Assembly: GCF_020614375.1 (NCBI RefSeq)
Contig: NZ_CP085333.1
Coordinates: 1 to 64,000, forward strand
Reading direction: 5' to 3'
DNA length: 64,000 nt
Source: Haladaptatus salinisoli
GTDB lineage: Archaea; Halobacteriota; Halobacteria; Halobacteriales; Haladaptataceae
Part shown: piece after piece, positions 11,671-41,239 of the stretch
Position numbering within the stretch: the first letter of the stretch is position 1
Layout of the letters: each line of letters begins with the position of its first letter
Position numbers and translations under genes: made by a program
Notes under the pieces: model-generated
Databases searched by the model: none
Told to the model about the DNA's origin: nothing
The model's input: only the letters and a program-made list of their open reading frames with translations

Positions 11671-11794
11671 GGGATTGAAAGGGGCCGTCCGCTCGCGTTA
11701 GCCGTGGTCGTCTCGGTGACCTCTATCGCAGAGCGGGCGGTGCGGAGAGAGTCGCGATATGTTGCCGAGCGGCCGCGAGCGGACGGGGGCTTTC
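11671..11794. ncRNA. structured inverted-repeat element, copy B
   Basis: GAAAG (11677-11681) pairs with CTTTC (11790-11794). GGG (11682-11684) faces GGG (11787-11789) as a symmetric internal loop. CCGTCCGCTCGCG (11685-11697) pairs perfectly over 13 bp with CGCGAGCGGACGG (11774-11786). The 76-base interior is unrelated to that of copy A at 7152-7258. RNA or DNA function is unknown, and the type label is provisional. Confidence 0.5.
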
Positions 11795-11871
11795 GACGTC
11801 ATCACGGTGCACCACTCCTTTTTCTCCCCGCAGAACTCCTCAAAACCGAAGACACTACGAGCCATCTACAA

Positions 11872-11880
11872 TTTTATATA
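11872..11880 (+). promoter_or_regulatory. TATA box of the Mre11-like operon
   Basis: TTTTATATA lies 37-45 bp before the ATG at 11917 in a local AT-rich patch that follows a GC-rich stretch. A start site about 25 bp downstream would leave a short leader. It supports the ATG at 11917 over in-frame starts further upstream. Confidence 0.5.
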
Positions 11881-11916
11881 GTGTTAATACAATATCTCAT
11901 CCAGAAATGTGTCAGC

Positions 11917-13218
11917 ATGAGCGATGATGATATTACCATTCTTTGTACCGGCGACCTTCATCTAGGCCGCCATCCCAGTCGGATTCCCGAGCGATTAGGT
12001 GGCCCGGAATTTTCTCCGAAAGCCGTTTGGCGTAAAACGGTCCAACGAGCCATCGACCGTGACGTTGACGCGGTTGTTGTCACTGGTGATGTCGCTGACC
12101 GGGAGAACCGATACTTCGAAGCATACGGCGCCTTTGAGGACGGTGCTATCCGCCTCGATGAGGCCGAAATTCCGACGATTACTATTGCTGGAAACCACGA
12201 CTTCGACGTGTTACCACGGATTGTGAAGGACTTAGACCTCGAAAATCTCCATTTGCTCGGTGAAAACGGAACGTGGGAACGGTGGTCACTCGAACGGGAG
12301 GGCGACCCCATCGTGAATTTTGATGGCTGGTCGTTCCCGGACGAACACGTATACGACTCTCCGTTTGACGAATACAACCTACCCGAGGGGGACATTCCCT
12401 GTATTGGCGTCCTTCACGCAGAGTTAGATTCCCGTGGGAGTCAGTACGCCCCGGTCCAATCGAGCGAGCTTCGAAACACCCACGCGATTGCGTGGTTGCT
12501 CGGCCATATTCACAGTCCAGGCATTCGGATCGACTCTGACCCAGTAACACTCTACCCAGGATCACCACAGGCGTTAGACCCTGGCGAATCCGGTAGGCAT
12601 GGCCCGTGGATACTCACCGTAGATGCTGACGGGGCTATCGCGCACGAACAGATTCCTTTGGCGAGCGTCCGATACGACCAACTCAAGGTAGACGTAACTG
12701 GCGTGAATGACCCACAGGCTGTTGCACCACTGCTATCGGATGAAATCCACGACTACATCCAGTCCTCGTCCAGTGTCGGAGCCCTGGACCTCTTCCTCGC
12801 CCGAGTTTGCCTCACTGGCCGAACGAATGCACATACAGCCCTCACCGAGCAACGCCAGACGATACGAGAGCAACTCGGAACCAAAACCGGTTCTGTCGAC
12901 GTTCGCATCGAATCAATCGACATCGAGACTCAGCCTGAAGTCGATCTCAAAACGCGAGCAGAAGGCGACGACGCACTCGCGTACGTAGCGAACCTACTGT
13001 TGGAACTCGAAAATGGAGCACCGAGTGACGAATACGAGCCACTCATAAAGAACTCGCTGGACGCGATGCGCCAGACACACCGAACGAACGCGTACAACAT
13101 CCTTCGGCGAGAATCAGACATCGACCAACCAAATCGGGACGATGCTGTTTCAGTACTCAAACGGGAGGCCCAAGTCTTACTTGATACATTAGTGAATCAG
13201 AAGGAGGCCGAACGATGA
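11917..13218 (+). CDS. Mre11/SbcD/YhaO-like metallophosphoesterase, 433 aa
   Basis: Calcineurin-like phosphoesterase motifs appear in order: GDLHLGR (residues 12-18), GDVADREN (57-64), GNHD (92-95), VLHAEL (165-170) and GHIH (196-199), then a YPGSPQALDPGE capping turn. All metal ligands expected of an Mre11-type nuclease are present. The C-terminal 200 residues replace the usual Mre11 capping and Rad50-binding region with a helical extension. The gene overlaps the following ATPase gene by 4 bp (ATGA), so the two products should form a complex. An upstream in-frame start at 11704 would add a basic tail absent from the family and is rejected. Confidence 0.88.
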   Translation: MSDDDITILCTGDLHLGRHPSRIPERLGGPEFSPKAVWRKTVQRAIDRDVDAVVVTGDVADRENRYFEAYGAFEDGAIRLDEAEIPTITIAGNHDFDVLPRIVKDLDLENLHLLGENGTWERWSLEREGDPIVNFDGWSFPDEHVYDSPFDEYNLPEGDIPCIGVLHAELDSRGSQYAPVQSSELRNTHAIAWLLGHIHSPGIRIDSDPVTLYPGSPQALDPGESGRHGPWILTVDADGAIAHEQIPLASVRYDQLKVDVTGVNDPQAVAPLLSDEIHDYIQSSSSVGALDLFLARVCLTGRTNAHTALTEQRQTIREQLGTKTGSVDVRIESIDIETQPEVDLKTRAEGDDALAYVANLLLELENGAPSDEYEPLIKNSLDAMRQTHRTNAYNILRRESDIDQPNRDDAVSVLKREAQVLLDTLVNQKEAER

Positions 13219-16200
13219 CGGACGACCCAATCGGCGTCGAAGAGCTGACCATTCGCCGGGCACCTGGCTTTGAATCCGAGGGATTCGCTGTTGAGGACAT
13301 CTGTTCAGGGATCAATATCGTCCACGGCCCGAATGCGACCGGAAAAACGACGGTCGCCAAGTCGATAGAGCGGTTATTTTGGCCAGAGGCCACCGAGGGC
13401 CATGCCGAACTTGTCGCCCGTCTCTCAGTCAATGGAGATGCGTGGCGAGTAGAGTTGAACGGCAGTCGTACAAGCTATCAGCAGGATGGAAAGGATGTCA
13501 ATCGGCCGAATCTACCGCCTGTCGACCAACGCGATCGCTACCGACTCTCGCTTCACACCCTCCTCCAGCAAGAAACCCGAAACGCGACCTTTGCCGAGAC
13601 TATCGAGCGGGAATCCGCTGGCGGGTATGACCTCGCTGACGCACGCGACGAACTCGGATACGCCGACTCCACAATCACCCGTGGGAAAGGGGTTGTCAAG
13701 GATGCCGAACAGGCCGTTGAGGACCTGCGTGACGCACAAAGCAACGTTAGCACGTTACGACGGAAGCAAGATCAACTTGCGAGACTTCGTGACGATCTTG
13801 AGGACGCCAGACGAGCCAAGGAGCGAGTCGAGCTGCTTGAACAGGCGATCAGTTACGTCGAGGCTCGGGACAAGCTCGAAGCCGCCGAAGCAGAACTGGA
13901 GGCGTTTCCTGAGGTATTGGAGCGCGTCAACGGTGATGAAGCCGATGAGGTTGTGAAGCTCGAAGAGCAGCTTCAGGAGTGGACAGAGAAGAAAACCAAG
14001 GCGGAAGATGCCAAAGACGAAGCTGAGCAGGAACTCGAAGACGCTGGCCTCTCAGAGGATGGTCTCCCCGATGGGAGGCTCCAACAGCTGAAAGGGCTCC
14101 AAGATAAATTGGAGTCGTTCGAGACCCGATCAGATAGCCTCAAAAGCGAACTCACCGGTGCAAAAGGTAAGAGGGCTAATGCGCGCAACGACATCCCGCT
14201 CGACGTCACCAAGAATGACTTGAGTGAACTTGACCCGGTGAGTTGGAAAGATGTCTCGAAGTTCGCTCGGAAGGCAGAAGAAGTACGAGCGAAACGGGAG
14301 TCTCGGACGGCTGTCGAAGAACTACTCGAAAACGACGAAGAGCACGAACAGGACCTTCAAACGCTGCAACGAGGGAGTCAGTTCCTTGAGGAATGGTTGG
14401 CAACGGCCTCACCGAGTGCTTCGAACGGGGGTGACGCGGCATTCAGGGTTGCTCTCGTTTCTGCTGCACTACTCTCGGCGGCAGGTCTCGCACTCGGAGT
14501 GCTAGTCAATCCTGTCCTCTTAGTGACGCTCCTTGCTGCTGCTGGCGTGCTCCTGTATGGTCATCGATCTCGTACGTCGACTGATGAGGAGAGTGATCCG
14601 CGGAAGCCACATCGCGACTCCTTCGAGCAGACGAGGTTGGGGGTACCGGATTCGTGGACGGTAGATGGAGTGCGAGCCCGCCTCACTGAACTCAACGACT
14701 CGATTGCACAGCAGCAACCCGCAGTGGAACGCGACCAACGACGTGAAGCTCTCACAGCGAACGGAGACCAACTTGAAGAAGACAAGCAGTCACTCGAAGC
14801 GACGCGGGCAAAACTACGTGAGAGCTTGGGTGCGGCCCCGGACACGACCGACGTCGAACTCACCGTAATTACGAAACGGGTGCTGGAGTGGCAGAAGGCC
14901 CACGACGAGGTAGTGAGACTCCAAGACGAACTTGATGCTGTCGAGGAACAACTCGATTCGGCGAAGAACGAACTTCAATCGAAAGTACAGCCGTACGGGT
15001 ACGAGGATGTCGAGAGTGCGCCAGCCGCAAAAGAAGCTATCCGGAATCTTGAACAGCGGAACAGTCAGCACGAGACTGCACAAAGCGACCTTGAACGCGC
15101 CAAGCAAACGATATCAGAGGCCAATGAAAAAGTCGAGGAGCTACGCTCGGACCGAGATCAGATTTTTACTACGCTCGACCTCGCTCCGGGAGACCACGAC
15201 GAACTGCAAGCTCTCTGTGAGCAGATTGAGGACTTCGAAGACGCAAAGACCACGGTCGAAACAGCGAGCGCTCTCGCAGAAAACGAGGCAGGAAAGCTCG
15301 AGAACCTCCCAGGGTACGAGCATGACCTCAAAGAGCGAGCCATTCCCGAGCTCAGAGAGGAACAACGTCAAGCAGAAGAGACAGCGGCAGGCTACGACGA
15401 CACTCAGACCAAAATCACTGAGATAGAGACGAGAATAGACGACGCAAAGACTGACGATACGGTCGAGAACGCGATCACCGAGAAAGAACGAGCGTTGGAC
15501 GCTCTTCAAGAGCAATTCGACGACGATTATTCTTCGACAGTCGGTGATGTGCTCGTCGACCACGTTCAGGAGACGACGATGGACGCGAGCAGACCGGCGG
15601 TGTTTCAACGTGCTCGGGAAATCCTAACGACGATTACAGGGGGGCGCTATCGGTTGGATCTCGCCGAGGAAGAGACGACGTTCCGAGCCTTCGACACGGC
15701 TAAACAGAAGGGGTTTGCACTGGACGAACTTTCCAGTGCGACTCGGGTGCAGGTGCTGCTGGCCGTCCGAATTGCGTTCATCGAACAACAAGAGCAGGGC
15801 ATCAAGCTCCCGCTCTTGCTCGATGAGACATTAGCGAATACCGACGACCACAGGGCCACTGTGATTATCGAGTCGATGATAGAGCTTGCCCGGGACGGTC
15901 GACAGGTATTCTATTTCACCGCACAAGGCGATGAGGTGGCAAAGTGGCTCAATGCACTGGAAGAGACAGCGACCATCGACCACAACGTAACCGACTTGGC
16001 AAACGCACGGGGACTCGAGAAAGCGGTCCAAATTCCGGACGTAGACGGCGGGGTCACCCTGACGCCTGACCTCCCCAGTCCTGATGCCCACGACCACGCC
16101 ACATATAGAGACGCGCTCGGCGTGGAACCGTTCGATCCCCATCAGGGGGTTGGCACAGCACACCTCTGGTACGTCGTTGAGGACGTCGAGTTGTTACACC

Positions 16201-16712
16201 AACTGCTAGAACTCGGGATCGAGCGATGGGGACCACTAAATAATCTCCTCGAACGCGGGAGTGAGGAGATTGTGGTAGAGGAGACAGATCGTTTAGAGCC
16301 GGTCCGGCAGAACGCAGAGGCGCTTGATGCGTTCGTAGCAGCGTGGAAAGTCGGCCGTGGGAAACCGGTCGAGAGACAAGTCCTCGAATCGTCAGGTGCC
16401 GTCAGCAGTAGGTTCATCGATGAAGTGGTGGCACTCGCCGAGTCTGTCGGGAACGATGGCGAGCGAGTCATCGACGCCCTACGAGATGGGGAAGTCAATC
16501 GATTCCAAACTGGGAAGATCAACGATCTCGAGACGTATTTCGAAGACTGTGGCTACATTGAGCCGTCGGCTTCACTCGATGGAGATCAGATTCGCATTCG
16601 AGTGATCGAAGGATTTGTCGACGCTGGCGTTTCCCGAGAATGTGCAAACGAGAAGGCTACGACGCTGCTCACGCGACTGAGTGAAACTACGACAGTCGAA
16701 GCAATCGAGTAG
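13215..16712 (+). CDS. Rad50/SbcC/YhaN-like ATPase with central membrane hairpin, 1165 aa
   Basis: The Walker A is GPNATGKT (38-45), the ABC signature is near 836-846 (LDELSSATRVQ) and the Walker B is LLLDETLA (about 865-872). Long charged coiled coils lie on both sides. Instead of a zinc hook with CxxC, residues of about 409-453 form two hydrophobic helices (VALVSAALLSAAGLALGV, then PVLLVTLLAAAGVLLYG). This is the layout of the bacterial membrane-linked YhaN type. About 265 residues beyond the ATPase core form a C-terminal extension I cannot assign. Paired with the overlapping Mre11-like gene, it probably processes DNA ends or acts on foreign DNA at the membrane. Confidence 0.85.
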   Translation: MTDDPIGVEELTIRRAPGFESEGFAVEDICSGINIVHGPNATGKTTVAKSIERLFWPEATEGHAELVARLSVNGDAWRVELNGSRTSYQQDGKDVNRPNLPPVDQRDRYRLSLHTLLQQETRNATFAETIERESAGGYDLADARDELGYADSTITRGKGVVKDAEQAVEDLRDAQSNVSTLRRKQDQLARLRDDLEDARRAKERVELLEQAISYVEARDKLEAAEAELEAFPEVLERVNGDEADEVVKLEEQLQEWTEKKTKAEDAKDEAEQELEDAGLSEDGLPDGRLQQLKGLQDKLESFETRSDSLKSELTGAKGKRANARNDIPLDVTKNDLSELDPVSWKDVSKFARKAEEVRAKRESRTAVEELLENDEEHEQDLQTLQRGSQFLEEWLATASPSASNGGDAAFRVALVSAALLSAAGLALGVLVNPVLLVTLLAAAGVLLYGHRSRTSTDEESDPRKPHRDSFEQTRLGVPDSWTVDGVRARLTELNDSIAQQQPAVERDQRREALTANGDQLEEDKQSLEATRAKLRESLGAAPDTTDVELTVITKRVLEWQKAHDEVVRLQDELDAVEEQLDSAKNELQSKVQPYGYEDVESAPAAKEAIRNLEQRNSQHETAQSDLERAKQTISEANEKVEELRSDRDQIFTTLDLAPGDHDELQALCEQIEDFEDAKTTVETASALAENEAGKLENLPGYEHDLKERAIPELREEQRQAEETAAGYDDTQTKITEIETRIDDAKTDDTVENAITEKERALDALQEQFDDDYSSTVGDVLVDHVQETTMDASRPAVFQRAREILTTITGGRYRLDLAEEETTFRAFDTAKQKGFALDELSSATRVQVLLAVRIAFIEQQEQGIKLPLLLDETLANTDDHRATVIIESMIELARDGRQVFYFTAQGDEVAKWLNALEETATIDHNVTDLANARGLEKAVQIPDVDGGVTLTPDLPSPDAHDHATYRDALGVEPFDPHQGVGTAHLWYVVEDVELLHQLLELGIERWGPLNNLLERGSEEIVVEETDRLEPVRQNAEALDAFVAAWKVGRGKPVERQVLESSGAVSSRFIDEVVALAESVGNDGERVIDALRDGEVNRFQTGKINDLETYFEDCGYIEPSASLDGDQIRIRVIEGFVDAGVSRECANEKATTLLTRLSETTTVEAIE

Positions 16713-36598: not shown

Positions 36599-36952
36599 TT
36601 AGAAGAACGGTGGGACGATCATCCCCGGAGCAAGGTTTTCAAAGAGTGTGACGAACACATTATAGCTGACCGAGAGGACGATCATGCCAGCGCCGCCCCA
36701 GAGGGCACGCCATCCCCACTGTGTGCGACTTGCGTTCCGCCCGGAGACGAACCACAGCGCTGCGCCAACGAGGAAGACGATGACTCCGATTTGGCCTAAC
36801 GTGGTTGCGACGAATTGTTCGATTTCACTGAGCGAGTTGTTGATCTCGCTTTGTTGTGCAGCAGCGATACCAGTACTGATACTGATCGCGAGCAAGGCAG
36901 TGACCAGATACCTAACTCGGCAATGGAATGGAAGGCGCATACACAATTTCAT
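36599..36952 (-). CDS. VirB2/TrbC-like pilin, 117 aa
   Basis: A signal peptide (YLVTALLAISISTGIAAAQQ) is followed by a short mature chain with two membrane helices (IGVIVFLVGAALWFVSG and ALWGGAGMIVLSVSYNVF) separated by a short charged loop. That is the VirB2/TrbC pilin hairpin. The gene heads the cluster of surface protein, VirB6-like and AAA+ genes and is divergent from a PadR-type regulator. Start ATG 36952 or the in-frame ATG four codons on; the latter gives a shorter n-region. Confidence 0.75.
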   Translation of the reverse strand: MKLCMRLPFHCRVRYLVTALLAISISTGIAAAQQSEINNSLSEIEQFVATTLGQIGVIVFLVGAALWFVSGRNASRTQWGWRALWGGAGMIVLSVSYNVFVTLFENLAPGMIVPPFF

Positions 36953-37119
36953 TCTTTTCCCCGAGATAAAAATCTTAGCCTTTATGAATAATATTCTGAA
37001 TTTATGTGGCGTAGTGAGACGCTACAAGTTTATTTCGAGAGTAATTTCAGAAAGGTTCGGTGGTTGATACTATTTTCTTTCAGCAAAGGTGAGTATTCAC
37101 CCTAAATTCTTCCGTCAAG

Positions 37120-37129
37120 TTAGCGCTAA
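37120..37129. promoter_or_regulatory. palindromic operator candidate
   Basis: TTAGCGCTAA is a perfect 10-bp palindrome in the 230 bp between the divergent pilin and PadR-type genes, 53 bp before the regulator start and just upstream of its TATA-like box. PadR proteins bind such dyads, so self-regulation and control of the pilin cluster are plausible. A second dyad (GTGGCGT/ACGCTAC) lies at about 37009-37026. Confidence 0.4.
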
Positions 37130-37153
37130 TTCTTTGATGTGATTATAGCAGGA

Positions 37154-37160
37154 TTTAAGT
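37154..37160 (+). promoter_or_regulatory. TATA-like box of the PadR-type gene
   Basis: TTTAAGT lies 23-29 bp before the ATG at 37183, which predicts a leaderless message starting at the ATG, as is common in haloarchaea. Confidence 0.45.
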
Positions 37161-37182
37161 AACAAAGATCAGTCACTCCAGT

Positions 37183-37554
37183 ATGACTAATTCGGATTTT
37201 GACCGAGATGACGCATCTTCTGATAGCAATGAGAATGAGCCATCTATTGATTTCTCGACATACAATCTCCCAACAGACCTCACTGCGTTTCAGACACACC
37301 TCTTATGTCTCATCTATCGGTTAGGACCAACCGAAGGTGTTGATCTCCAAGAAGCCCTTGAAGAGCTCTATCCAGAGCCGATCAATCATGGTCGATTATA
37401 TCCAGGCCTTGACCGACTCGTTGAGAAAGGATTGATCTCGAAGCAGACGAAAGCAAGCGATAAGCGACGGAATGCGTATGCAACGGTCGGACGAGGGGAG
37501 TGGGCGGTTGAGGAATATCACCGATTCATACACGATATTGTGATGTCGGAGTAA
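37183..37554 (+). CDS. PadR-type transcriptional regulator, 123 aa
   Basis: An acidic N-terminal tail of 30 residues precedes a winged helix (LTAFQTHLLCLIYRLGPTEG, LQEALEELYPEPINHGRLYP, LDRLVEKGLISKQTKASDKR, YATVGRG). The NHGRLYPGLDRLVEKGL stretch is the recognition and dimer helix of PadR proteins. Only a short C-terminal helix follows, as in the small PadR-like regulators of archaeal mobile elements. It is divergent from the pilin and transfer genes, which it probably represses. Confidence 0.82.
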   Translation: MTNSDFDRDDASSDSNENEPSIDFSTYNLPTDLTAFQTHLLCLIYRLGPTEGVDLQEALEELYPEPINHGRLYPGLDRLVEKGLISKQTKASDKRRNAYATVGRGEWAVEEYHRFIHDIVMSE

Positions 37555-37694
37555 CCGTCAAGTATCTCTGACAACTATGGTCCTTGTACCAACTCTGTAG
37601 AAAAAACTGACTTTTATTCAGTAGTATCATTAGAATAATCTACAAAACCGTCTTACTCAACCTCAGTCGAATCACGCTCCACCCCTAATGAGCA

Positions 37695-37758
37695 ACGGTG
37701 GTTGGTCGGAGATATGTGCCTCACGGCCCGAAGACACATGTTTTCTCTTTTCCACCGT
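37695..37758. repeat. hairpin unit 0
   Basis: ACGGTGG (37695-37701) pairs with CCACCGT (37752-37758). Inside, ATGTG (37714-37718) pairs with CACAT (37735-37739). The outer arm recalls the AACGTGG arm of the later units but is not the same sequence. It is the least certain member of the array. Confidence 0.35.
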
Positions 37759-37957
37759 GACGTGACGATGGGACTTAGTAGGTGGGTAGGTGGCAAGGGG
37801 AGCAGTCGCGTGACCAGATTTGCGCGTTTTCTCTGCTTTGCCGTCCTACCGAATACTATGATGAACTATCCCACTATAGTTCCTCTGGCTACATACGTTG
37901 GTAAATAATATCTGATCTGTATTGAATAGGAACACGCTTCTCTAACAGGCATGTATA

Positions 37958-38183
37958 GAACGTGGAAATAAGCAGTGAGTTTGGTTGTTTCTCGTTTTGC
38001 AACGCTGCCCACATCCGTCGAGTAGAAGACAGTAAGTTTCAACAATGAACTTGCTATGAGTCACTCAACACAAATAGGATACTAATCACAGACTTGTATC
38101 TTACTTCCGTTCTTACCACTATCTCGAAAGAGGGGGCACACTGATTGGCACGATCTCCTGCCCTCAGAGAGATGACGTGCCCC
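37958..38183. repeat. hairpin unit 1 (degenerate)
   Basis: GAACGTGGA at 37958-37966 and the tract 38011-38076 align with unit 2; the latter tract is about 76% identical over 66 bases to 38463-38528 with mostly transition differences. The arms are decayed (CCCACATCC instead of TCCACGTTC). A third stem, GGGGCAC (38133-38139) with GTGCCCC (38177-38183), is intact. Confidence 0.45.
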
Positions 38184-38419
38184 GGCGATAAATACGGGTT
38201 AAATGATAAAGTCCATGGATAGAAGTGATATGATTTCGTGCCAACCGAATTTTCTCAATTATTTATACTCACTAATAATACATTGCTTATCGTATCCCAT
38301 GTATTTAATAGGAATAGACGACGACACGCTTATCTTGTGATATTCGCGGAATAGAGACGTTTATTTCCGTCTTACATCGGAACCACGGTGTGTTAGTTTA
38401 ACAAGCATGTCACCGTATT

Positions 38420-38620
38420 GAACGTGGAGTGATAGAGGTAGGTGCTAGTCACCGCGAGTTCCACGTTCGTCGGGTGGAAGACAGCGGGTTTCAATCGTGA
38501 ACTCACTATGATCCACTCGACACAAGAAATACACTAGCTCTCCCCTTAGTAATTGGGCTGTCTGTGGGCGGTGAGATGGGGGACTTGGCACGCGAATGGT
38601 CTCCTCGCGGTTGTCCCCCA
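38420..38620. repeat. hairpin unit 2
   Basis: Stem 1: GAACGTGGA (38420-38428) with TCCACGTTC (38460-38468), perfect. Stem 2 begins at the next base: GTCGGGTGG (38469-38477) with CCACTCGAC (38513-38521), one G-U. Stem 3: TGGGGGAC (38577-38584) with GTCCCCCA (38613-38620), plus inner CGCGA/TCGCG. It is the best-formed unit. Confidence 0.55.
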
Positions 38621-38701
38621 CTCAAATGATTGATTAACTAACCAAAAATCTATTGATTGAAGCAAGGTAGCGAACTCGATCATCGCTTCAGTGTCGTATC
38701 G

Positions 38702-38789
38702 AAACGTGGGTGAGCGGTGGTGAAGTTGTGATCGCGCTGCCCACGTTTGTCGGGCATGCTTATCCAACAACCGTCACGAATGCCCGACA
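38702..38789. repeat. hairpin unit 3
   Basis: Stem 1: AAACGTGGG (38702-38710) with CCCACGTTT (38740-38748), perfect. Stem 2: TGTCGGGCAT (38748-38757) with ATGCCCGACA (38780-38789), perfect with a 22-base loop. Compared with unit 2, both ends of stem 1 change together (G-C to A-T, A-T to G-C), keeping pairing. Confidence 0.55.
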
Positions 38790-38935
38790 CTAGCTAGCAT
38801 TGTGCAAGGTGATAAAGTAATTTTGGTAGCAATTGAATAAATAAAGTTGATGGGAATTATTTACAACTGTAATAGTAGTACACGTAAGTGGCCATGGTTA
38901 GGACAACATGCTAACAGCCTCGACATTGTCTAGAA

Positions 38936-39031
38936 CGTGAGGACTATGGAAGAAAGCGATTCACCGGGTGAATGGTACATCCCCACGCCCGCCAAACACA
39001 TGAGGTGGCTTCACTATGACTTGTGTTTGGC
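38936..39031. repeat. hairpin unit 4
   Basis: Stem 1: CGTGAGGA (38936-38943) with TCCCCACG (38980-38987), one mismatch. Stem 2: GCCAAACACA (38991-39000) with TGTGTTTGGC (39022-39031), perfect with a 21-base loop. The order and spacing of the two stems match units 2 and 3, although stem 2 has a different sequence. Confidence 0.45.
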
Positions 39032-39294
39032 ATACATTATTACGCTAGTCAGTAATATATCTCTGTCGCTACTATAGAAGAAAGTTCCCATTCAAGGAAA
39101 GTACCCATAACTCCTATGCCCCCGTCATAGACTAGCTTTCCGCTGCGGAGATGACTACCAATCGTAAAACGAACAACCAACGAAAGTGGTCTATCGCCGT
39201 CGAGAACGGATAGTACGTCAATGGTGAAGGACGGCAGACGATCATGAGTACCGTGATACCTAGTCAGACCACTACCTGAATTGAGTCGCTAAGG

Positions 39295-39337
39295 CCCCTT
39301 CCTCAACGAGCGACCGAAGGGAGCGAGTAGGGAGGGG
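39295..39337. terminator. strong hairpin, possible IS605-type end
   Basis: CCCCTTCCT (39295-39303) pairs with AGGGAGGGG (39329-39337) with one G-U, and the loop holds CGAGCGACCGAAGGGAGCGAG. Words like this occur at ends of haloarchaeal IS200/IS605 elements as I recall them, but no transposase is present. It could equally be a terminator of a transcript through the hairpin array. Confidence 0.35.
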
Positions 39338-39434
39338 ATACAGCGCCGTCATCGTCTGTCTTGCGATGGCGTCCCGAACGAAAGTAGCGAAAAGTAAATA
39401 ACACTTGATTCATTCGATTCAAATGTAAACATCA

Positions 39435-39641
39435 ATGGAACAAAAAGAGACGGACGACAATAACACACTCGAGTTCAGAACACTTGATACTGGCAACCTC
39501 GTCAGCATGGTTGCTCATAGACGGACACACAATCTCAGCGAGAATGCCACCGAACTTCTCGAAGCCATTGCTGAGTCGATGGAAGAGGAGTTTGAGGCGA
39601 TCTGTGACGAGGTAGAACGGTTGGATACCAGCGCTGAATAA
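39435..39641 (+). CDS. small acidic protein, 68 aa
   Basis: A strongly acidic 68-residue protein (MEQKETDDNNTLEFRTLDTG, then a helical ENATELLEAIAESMEEEFEA and EVERLDTSAE). The composition is typical of soluble haloarchaeal proteins and contrasts with the non-coding DNA before it. It has no recognisable motif and no operon partner. An AT-rich stretch just upstream (about 39390-39430) could hold its promoter. The overlapping minus-strand frame is basic and Cys-rich, and so is rejected. Confidence 0.6.
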   Translation: MEQKETDDNNTLEFRTLDTGNLVSMVAHRRTHNLSENATELLEAIAESMEEEFEAICDEVERLDTSAE

Positions 39642-40219
39642 CAGATATCTTCCCTCTTCGTGTGGTTGTATGAGTGACGTATCTCTTTCAGAAAAATAGT
39701 CTCGGCATTTCATTGGTGGCTTTGATACAAGCGCTGGAAGCATGCGACGGTATCGCCACATGGTTGGGTTGGCACATTCTCTTCTCCTTCCGACCTTATG
39801 AGTAGCCGTGAAATGGGAACGAGTGCCCCTCTGTGGCATATATTTCGCTATGTAGAAACACTAGTAAAACTCAAGTTGAGGTGGCCGAATGAATCACTTG
39901 GGGCGACGTCTGAAACAGTATGGTCATCTCAACGGCGCTCCCCCACTTCACCCACTTGTGTGATTTTGACAATTAGTGCGCCAGATAGTTAGAAAGGTGA
40001 TCGACTATTATCACATAACAATATATTATACATTCGAATGAAAGTCTGCCGCAATTCTATACTATTCACGGAAGGATCTCTCCGCATGTCCGTGTAAAAG
40101 GTAGACGAATAATGGCCAACGAAACCCCTTGAACGGTGTACCTATGACGCTTCTCACCTCTCGGCAACTTGCTGGCCAACGAAAAATCTCACATCAAGAA
40201 AACGTGGAAGGATTACTTT
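39642..40219. other. AT-rich gap, no gene seen
   Basis: About 580 bp with no supported frame. A 12-bp direct repeat, TGGCCAACGAAA, occurs at 40113-40124 and 40173-40184, exactly 60 bp apart, just beyond the end of the PGF-CTERM gene. AT-rich tracts near 40010-40035 show nothing further. Confidence 0.4.
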
Positions 40220-41239
40220 TTACGGTCTGCGCCTGGCGAGGAGTGCTGCTCCAAGGAGGGCAACAACGGCAGTAGCAACGCCAAATCCAGGTTGACCATT
40301 GCTTTCAGTTGTCGTTTCGTCTCCACCCGACCCACCGTCCGACGAATCAGTAGTGGTCGTGTCCTCTTCAGCGGTCGTAGTTGTGGTCGTCGTCGTCGTT
40401 GTTTCGCCAGGATCTTCGCCTTCTCCTGAGTCACCGAAAACGAGTTTCACGTTGCGGATTTCGATATTCTGGATGATGACGCGATAGGTCTTGCCTTTCT
40501 TGACACCTTTTTTCGCCATCTTTTCTTTCACTTGATCCCGCACAGATTTCACCGCAGCCATCGACTGCTTATCTTCCTTTGTGGAAGAACCAACGGAGAA
40601 GGTGCGGTCTTTGAGGGTCACATCTCCAAGTGTGATTGTCTCATCTGGAGTCTCATCAGGGCCAACAACAAACGACCATTTCTCGATACTCAATCGTTCA
40701 ATCGTAATGTGGAACGAAGGGAGTTGCGAATCCTCCGACGTTAGCGACTGCCATTCAGCCGAAGAAATCAATTCCTCTCGAGAGACGTCGTCGGGCATCT
40801 TGTTTGGCAACTGCGCAATTACTTTGACGTTTTGAATCCGAATATTTTTGAAGCAGATACGGACAGTTTCTCCCTTTTTCCGCTTGACAGATTTTTTCGC
40901 CTTCGCCACTGCTTTCTGTTTTGCAGGGACTGATGCGACCTCAGACAAACTGTCTGCCTTCGCCAGCTTCTTCGCATTCACACGGTACGTCTTGTCCTTG
41001 ATCGACACAGGACCAACGAATACGGTTCGGTCTGGTTTCTCATCAGGGCCCACAACAATCGACCAGTTATGGATCGTCAGTTGCTCGACTTTGAAAACGA
41101 CCTTTTGTGGGTGTTTTTTCTCCTTATCTTTACCTTTATCTTTATCTTTTGCTCCGTCTGCCTGTACAACCCCAAATGCGGACACGAGGAGTATCCCTAC
41201 GAGGAAGATACTCACGATCTTGTTCTTATTCATTCTCAT
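40220..41239 (-). CDS. PGF-CTERM surface protein with duplicated domain, 339 aa
   Basis: A Sec signal (KIVSIFLVGILLVSAFGVV) begins the chain. Two copies of one domain follow: VEQLTIHNWSIVVGPDEKPD...GPVSIKDKTYRV and IERLSIEKWSFVVGPDETPD...GDVTLKDRTFSV, each ending in an IRIQNVKV or IEIRNVKL strand. A Thr/Asp/Ser/Gly-rich spacer leads to GQPGFGVATAVVALLGAALL and RRRP, the PGF-CTERM signal cut by archaeosortase A for lipid attachment. The domain itself is not recognised. The start is ATG 41239 or 41233; the longer frame begins with residues unlike a signal peptide. Confidence 0.8.
   Translation of the reverse strand: MRMNKNKIVSIFLVGILLVSAFGVVQADGAKDKDKGKDKEKKHPQKVVFKVEQLTIHNWSIVVGPDEKPDRTVFVGPVSIKDKTYRVNAKKLAKADSLSEVASVPAKQKAVAKAKKSVKRKKGETVRICFKNIRIQNVKVIAQLPNKMPDDVSREELISSAEWQSLTSEDSQLPSFHITIERLSIEKWSFVVGPDETPDETITLGDVTLKDRTFSVGSSTKEDKQSMAAVKSVRDQVKEKMAKKGVKKGKTYRVIIQNIEIRNVKLVFGDSGEGEDPGETTTTTTTTTTAEEDTTTTDSSDGGSGGDETTTESNGQPGFGVATAVVALLGAALLARRRP

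Follow-up and report, generated by a model that had tools for sequence, protein, structure and literature searches.

A double-hairpin array in Haladaptatus salinisoli is part of a new structured noncoding family, detected in this analysis in Haladaptatus alone

The window analysed here is a stretch of 64,000 nucleotides at the start of a 338-kb contig of the haloarchaeon Haladaptatus salinisoli. Within it, a gene-free stretch of plasmid DNA between positions 37555 and 39434 contains an array of four units, which belong to a new structured noncoding family encountered in this analysis in the genus Haladaptatus alone. The folds of this element are preserved by matched mutations across copies scattered through Haladaptatus genomes, and the element is therefore very probably functional or actively maintained. 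Haloarchaea have few described structured noncoding families beyond the universal ones. The present family shows unusually clear covariation, is found in seven of nine Haladaptatus genomes examined with about 30 copies in one species, and has at least one copy with sharp borders. It also offers a clean case in which to ask whether a family of dispersed archaeal hairpins consists of RNA genes or is a parasite of single-stranded DNA.

Each unit consists of a first hairpin, H1 (core AACGTGG/CCACGTT), which directly abuts a second, H2 (core GTCGGG/CCCGAC). Read as in the window, the H1 loop often contains GGTAGGTG or GGTGG, and in many copies H2 is followed by a tail in which a YATG-like motif and the letters TTTGG occur with spacing that hardly varies; the two tail types, A and B, have by eye a CTTAGTNNTTGG-like core in common. 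The units lie at 37957-38084 (U0), 38419-38536 (U1), 38701-38802 (U2) and 38932-39048 (U3), all on the plus strand. U0 is degenerate and is placed on the plus strand as modelled, its folded strand probably being the complement; its H1 (37958-37966/38009-38016) has the arms GAACGTGGA/CCACATCC and its H2 (38017-38025/38062-38069) the arms GTCGAGTAG/CACTCAAC. U1, of type A, has H1 at 38420-38428/38460-38468 and H2, with an inner stem, at 38469-38477/38513-38521. In U2, of type B, H1 is found at 38702-38710/38740-38748 and H2 at 38749-38757/38780-38788, followed on the same strand by a conserved tail at 38789-38851 (TTTTGG at 38821-38826, with a spacing from H2 that is nearly gap-free in type B copies). 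The first stem of U3 is weaker (CGTGAGG/CCCCACG, 38936-38942/38981-38987, one mismatch) and its second perfect (GCCAAACACA/TGTGTTTGGC, 38991-39000/39022-39031); a copy 84% identical to this unit is located at locus L007, 6105-6265. When the 64-kb window was searched at E up to 10 with R1, a covariance model trained on a set that includes all four units, these four alone were recovered, all on the plus strand. Scores for these training members were 56.4 bits (U0), 85.1 bits (U1) and 72.4 bits (U2), and U2 scored 123.1 bits with a second model, R2, which was likewise trained on it.

Direct reading of region 37555-39434, together with a repeat search, confirmed hairpin units at the positions originally predicted. 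That prediction had counted at least three units; the three are present, and the degenerate copy at 37957-38084, which falls outside the coordinates first given, brings the total to four. Compensatory changes in the arms are real, although they separate U1 from U2 rather than U2 from U3 as first described: between these units the first stem changes from GAACGTGGA/TCCACGTTC to AAACGTGGG/CCCACGTTT and the second from GTCGGGTGG/CCACTCGAC to GTCGGGCAT/ATGCCCGAC. A shared tract of roughly 66 to 76 bases also exists (74% identity over 76 nt), but the partner of U1 is U0 and not U2. Likewise, a third, G-rich stem does follow U1 on the plus strand at 38578-38619 (GGGGGAC 38578-38584/GTCCCCC 38613-38619, with an inner CGCGA 38591-38595/TCGCG 38605-38609), and by eye it is U0 that is followed by a looser one (GAGGGGGC 38130-38137/GCCCTC 38160-38165). 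Counterparts of the G-rich stem, compared by eye only, occur after units in L007, L008, L009 and L015. A possible pairing between the tail and the H2 loop showed up by eye in a few copies only and was dropped. As a separate observation, a block upstream of the array (window 37690-37960, with counterparts in L007 4700-5000, L026 and L004) contains, by eye, a long hairpin of the AAACGTGT/ACACGTTT type and a TGACGACRGYGTCA near-palindrome.

The strongest evidence that the array is more than chance comes from matches to R1 outside the window. A blastn search of plasmids with 37900-39100 as query matched four Haladaptatus halobius records and, weakly, one Rhizobium record, and further copies were located in the window's own genome and in an H. 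halobius genome (G003). R1 was built from 31 units drawn from copies of genomes G000 and G003 only. Out of sample, it gave ten full-length matches in three other genomes, G004, G005 and G008 (per-genome E 1e-5 to 8e-4), in which the letters of the arms differ from those of the training set and H1 and H2 can still be read, some with mismatches. At E up to 0.05 R1 returned 52 matches in five Haladaptatus genomes (the identical halves of contig C9 of G003 being counted apart), and in the 19 other genomes of the family one marginal match (E 0.0475, in genome G012 of another genus), which was left out of the members. Two matches that looked coding by eye were also set aside (E 0.139 in G005 and 0.218 in G002), and one at E 0.17 (L061) was kept as a copy since it reads like a unit.

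R2, which includes the tail and was trained on 21 sequences with copies of G005 and G008 among them, yielded 53 matches in seven of the 28 family genomes, all of them Haladaptatus (seven of nine; G002 and G006 gave no match). Newly recovered were G001 (1.2e-9) and G007 (6.3e-5), with one full copy detected in each, both stems readable and the sequence diverged. No match to R2 was obtained in the 19 other family genomes. A sample of 40 genomes from the order gave a match in the window's own genome and none in the remaining 39, of which two had been included in the family set as well. In a sample of 242 genomes from the class, with 15 candidates scored per genome, the own genome was likewise the one with a match. 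A strict pattern scan, which catches some true copies only, gave no matches in viral contigs and seven stretches in genome contigs, of which four belong to H. halobius and three were judged to be chance (Nostoc twice, Nocardia). Copy number per genome ranges from one to about 30, the latter in H. halobius, and the covariance-model search that had been proposed with the original prediction has turned up further homologues with compensatory changes in seven of nine Haladaptatus genomes.

Covariation was examined in several alignments, with pair counts referring to sequences and not to evolutionary events. Alignment A1 holds the 31 training units of R1, which were collected by hand and by eye since the automatic unit finder was too noisy, and were aligned with plain MAFFT: 85.5% of its cells are paired and double changes occur in 11 of 17 pairs. 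In A3, also made with MAFFT, 85.6% of cells are paired and seven of 17 pairs carry double changes; a pair count of seven was reached by 29 of 500 shuffles, and the 15 double-change cells were reached by none. Two larger alignments were fitted to the covariance model. In A4 (57 rows, 56 distinct) double changes are present in 15 of 17 pairs, with 96 double-change cells as against 37.9 in shuffles, and in A5 (56 copies) double-sided changes are present in 16 of 17 pairs, with 83 cells as against 30.8. Paired cells in A5 amount to 88.8%, compared with 23.7-52.6% when the partners are slid by one to three columns, a percentage that leans towards the model because the alignment was fitted to it. 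RNAalifold applied to A1 by itself predicted H2 only. Conserved secondary structure with covariation, as is expected of a structured noncoding RNA, is thus present, and A1, A4 and A5 lend strong support to the original description of the array as conserved, folded RNA or single-strand DNA.

Folding energy gives a more uneven picture. The z-scores as read are -3.83 for U1, -3.60 for U2, -1.73 for U3 and -1.29 for U0, so that on energy alone two of the window units are clear and two are not. For the stretch 38410-39060, none of 20 shuffled versions folds as well as the real sequence, whichever strand is taken (z -3.62 and -3.55).

Comparisons of related copies with their flanks are similarly mixed. 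In the orthologous pair G0C5_196k/G3C2_44k, four of 80 core sites have changed as against 82 of 487 in the flanks (p = 0.004; p 0.0061 with longer flanks, 0.026 for core plus tail). Core against flank gave p 0.027 for 44k/174k (core plus tail 0.021), p 0.057 for 78k/153k (0.15) and p 0.26 for 196k/174k (0.44). In two pairs the direction is reversed, the element having changed more than its flanks: significantly for core plus tail in G5C3/G5C5 (p 0.044; core p 0.08), and not significantly in G0C5_78k/G3C3_229k (p 0.18; core plus tail 0.29). Conservation above the flanks is therefore not general among the pairs compared, and selection, which is shown for base pairs when copies are compared with one another, is less firmly so for the individual copy at its locus.

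The nature of the imperfect pairs points to the strand that folds. As read in the window, A-C mismatches outnumber G-U pairs by 58:18 in A1 (without row L7c), 92:29 in 54 rows of A4, 81:37 in A5 and 15:3 in 11 copies from G004, G005 and G008 (L061 included). An A-C pair as read is a G-U pair on the complement, where it folds well, and the folded strand, whether RNA or single-stranded DNA, is thus probably the complement, running from a CCAAA box to H2' and then H1'; this assignment is supported but not proven. Mean fold z-scores of 49 units, which are corrected for composition, agree (-2.21 on the complement, -1.56 as read), whereas the raw minimum free energy favours the reading strand (means -32.0 against -30.6 on the complement, which is lower in 20 of 49; Wilcoxon p 0.034), and departures in the G-rich third stem of L007, L009 and L015 are, by eye, G-U as read, which counts against the complement. 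On the complement, seven of 43 copies have a strong TATA-like match 25-28 nt ahead of the CCAAA box, the largest count of any of 23 bins. Mean TATA-like scores show no peak at that position and matches also occur upstream of H1 on the reading strand (six of 42 at -36 to -29), so that the promoter evidence is weak both ways. A scan of the array region for bacterial promoters and terminators gave counts that did not clearly exceed those in shuffled sequence, and archaea do not follow sigma-70 rules in any case.

The best explanation, which we favour tentatively and hold at somewhat below an even chance, is that the element represents a multicopy family of small structured RNAs; it is rated above a gene-less mobile single-stranded DNA element, which follows close behind. 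Each copy or array would give rise to a small RNA of roughly 130-160 nt, transcribed from the complement strand, and this RNA may act in trans by binding protein or by base-pairing. Many H1 loops retain, by eye, a GGTAGGTG-like motif, with its complement on the other strand. Copies would multiply and be reshuffled as units recombine with one another, in part close to the H1/H2 junction, which is conserved, and such recombination would account for the arrays, the mosaics and the scattered single copies. The RNA is preferred to the mobile element because the single copies detected in G001 and G007 keep both stems in diverged sequence, which is easier to explain by a function in place than by an active parasite, and because neither a target site nor a link to IS605 emerged from what was examined. 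The range of copy number resembles that of a mobile repeat and counts against the RNA.

A gene-less mobile element is a possible but somewhat less likely alternative: its hairpins would be read on a single folded strand of DNA by an enzyme acting in trans, in the manner of haloarchaeal PATEs or IS200/IS605 ends, and the structure would be kept because only foldable copies spread. Copies occur scattered across chromosomes and plasmids, no gene being common to most of their surroundings, they are heterogeneous, and one strand is seemingly the folded one; moreover, the two reversed pairs described above have changed at least as much as their flanks. The borders also fit: three other copies align with G0C2_459k over the span from 0 to +150-156 counted from the start of H1, with no match of the flanks at E 1e-6, and since the match ends so sharply at least this unit is discrete, at about 155 nt. 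Such a unit is too short to encode a transposase and, judged by eye, the units have no terminal inverted repeats from end to end, features of PATEs and related elements of IS200/IS605. With discrete borders and dispersal, a MITE or PATE type of mobile repeat, MITEs having been named in the original prediction, may apply, and PATEs provide a precedent (PMC3119063). No ends of the MITE type, which are terminal inverted repeats shared with a transposon and usually accompanied by target duplications, were seen by eye. Against mobility, R1 and R2 at E up to 1 found no element in the 30 TnpB loci fetched, of 89 TnpB matches in three genomes, and palindromes related to IS605-type ends were accordingly not found in these 30. 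With one TnpB fragment omitted from the comparison, a TnpB domain is found within 2 kb of two of the 34 element clusters, and contig C7 of H. halobius has six element clusters and no TnpB match. No constant target tetranucleotide was seen by eye before H1; at the one site tried, that of G0C2_459k, there was no clean empty site, the flanks being found at two different places in G003; and no transposase-bearing relative was found among the neighbouring ORFs or TnpB loci examined. The readable single copies of G001 and G007 likewise speak against it.

The neighbourhood of the array bears on whether it serves a particular replicon or gene. Upstream lies a gene for a PadR-type regulator (37183-37554, plus strand; Pfam PF03551), relatives of which were found by blastp upstream of copy G000:C2:12 kb and downstream of copy G000:C5:78 kb; with three of 36 loci in all, the gene is regarded as context of the array. 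Downstream is a 68-codon ORF (39435-39641, plus strand), also context, with no Pfam match in a search of 39438-39641; a relative (tblastn, 74.6% identity over residues 6-68, in the sole plasmid record matched) lies downstream of a related H. halobius array. Clustering of neighbouring ORFs at 36 loci by blastp gave gene families common to at most ten of them, the most shared being mainly HalOD1-like and winged-helix-like proteins, named in part from plasmid annotation, and no gene recurs beside most copies. Two further features of the window were noted. A separate repeat of about 76-95 nt at 39273-39359, matched by 17 of the best 20 of 110 plasmid records from many haloarchaeal genera, overlaps the end of a transposase gene in one record, lies near an IS66-family transposase in another, and looks like a transposon end or MITE; and at 11704-16712 a metallophosphatase gene is followed by one for a 1165-aa AAA protein (Pfam), a pair presumably Mre11/Rad50-like in layout.

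That the element is a cis-acting site of replicons, a single-strand hairpin read on one strand in replication, segregation or transfer, is unlikely. In its favour, the matches in G005 fall on six of seven contigs, close to one locus each, and contig C9 of G003 (L087, 21.46 kb) has two copies 10.73 kb apart with 3 kb around them identical, so that it is probably a small 10.7-kb plasmid assembled as a dimer that carries one copy along with genes for a TrwB/TraG-type coupling protein and, at sub-threshold score, a relaxase-like protein. The array itself was originally placed next to a conjugation cluster. Conjugation-like genes do lie near it (pilin-like and HerA/TraG-like proteins, with Pfam matches below curated cut-offs), but the link looks incidental, other copies having different neighbourhoods. 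On the other side, G003 and G000 have several clusters per replicon, copies occur on the largest contigs, and the C9 copy is more than 2 kb from the relaxase-like gene; spread over chromosomes with several loci per replicon speaks against a transfer origin. The suggested replication origin seems unlikely: a few copies lie within about 1-8 kb of orc1/cdc6 and most are far away, distances that look unremarkable as judged from positions by eye, without a statistic.

A cis-regulatory leader or upstream element of neighbouring genes is improbable, despite the copies upstream of purL in G000, G004, G005 and G007, which share the same relative orientation, such that the complement strand reads in the direction of the gene. 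The majority of copies lie elsewhere than near purL, and the other five Haladaptatus purL loci have no copy detected within the stretches fetched. Directly upstream of purL in all nine Haladaptatus genomes is a block, CACGTTCGTGCAYATGGAAAGGCATTAAT, with small differences, and where the element is present it lies beyond this block, about 100 nt to 1 kb upstream of the gene. With no copy detected at five loci and a nearly invariant block between element and gene, the position upstream of purL is read as a recurrent or ancestral landing place and not as a leader. The block may itself be a site for a purine regulator.

Equally improbable is a gene-less cassette system, which would be the archaeal analogue of integron attC arrays but lack cassette genes. 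In such a system a site-specific recombinase acting in trans would add, remove and swap noncoding units made up of H2, the tail and the next H1, working at the H1/H2 junction on a single folded strand of DNA. The hints come from the halves of the element, as similarity in the H1 half and in the H2-plus-tail half is nearly uncorrelated over pairs of 56 copies (r = 0.145), owing partly to deletions within H2 and partly to apparent mosaics. In one of these, G3C4_35k, about 145 nt split two pieces that are contiguous in G3C7_174k, the break falling within about 15 nt of the H1/H2 junction; in the other, G3C4_291k (L020), a type A-like H1 adjoins an H2 that is type B-like. Template switching between repeats, or their recombination, would be another way to arrive at these patterns. 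Finally, chance hairpins or neutral decay of repeats, with no selection on structure, are hardly credible: U3 and U0 do show only a small folding advantage over shuffled sequence (z -1.73 and -1.29) and conservation above flanks is patchy and reversed in one comparison, but double changes far exceed shuffled and slid controls and out-of-sample copies have recoded, readable stems.

Set beside known systems, the element itself is matched by no Rfam model. In the window at 36900-40300 there was no match on the units and one of 24.1 bits (E 3.6) outside them, and at 16 loci with copies the only match was sot0042, which did not reach its gathering score and does not overlap the element. The latter (RF02656; L044 1201-1374, minus strand; E 1.9e-9, 48.1 bits against a gathering score of 88) ends 127 nt before the G8C2 element. 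The sotRNA or omegaRNA of IS200/IS605 is a structured haloarchaeal noncoding RNA linked to mobile DNA; the element described here differs in that no Rfam model falls on it and no TnpB link was found. REP, BIME and REPIN repeats, which are paired with RAYT transposases, are by their general description alike in being dispersed intergenic hairpins in mosaic clusters, and the present element differs in its larger units, covarying arms, copy number of one to about 30 per genome and archaeal host. Integron attC sites are recognised as one folded DNA strand and form arrays; the units here also form arrays, and their insertion and exchange seem to take place close to a junction that is conserved, although they are without cassette genes. 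Readings as K-turn, box C/D, H/ACA or attC were dropped for lack of fit on inspection of the letters. Among the literature matches listed, which mostly do not extend to subscription papers and preprints, no title or opening of an abstract names such an element. The PATEs (palindrome-associated transposable elements) of Haloquadratum are described as transposase-free, lacking inverted repeats and target duplications, and having near-terminal palindromes (PMC3119063). They differ from the present element in having such palindromes near each end, where here two abutting hairpins and a tail occur in arrays with mosaic units; at the 30 TnpB loci examined, moreover, the sequence around TnpB has no match to the hairpins. 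Both are haloarchaeal, dispersed, non-coding, palindromic and heterogeneous in sequence, with no inverted terminal repeats seen (PMC3119063).
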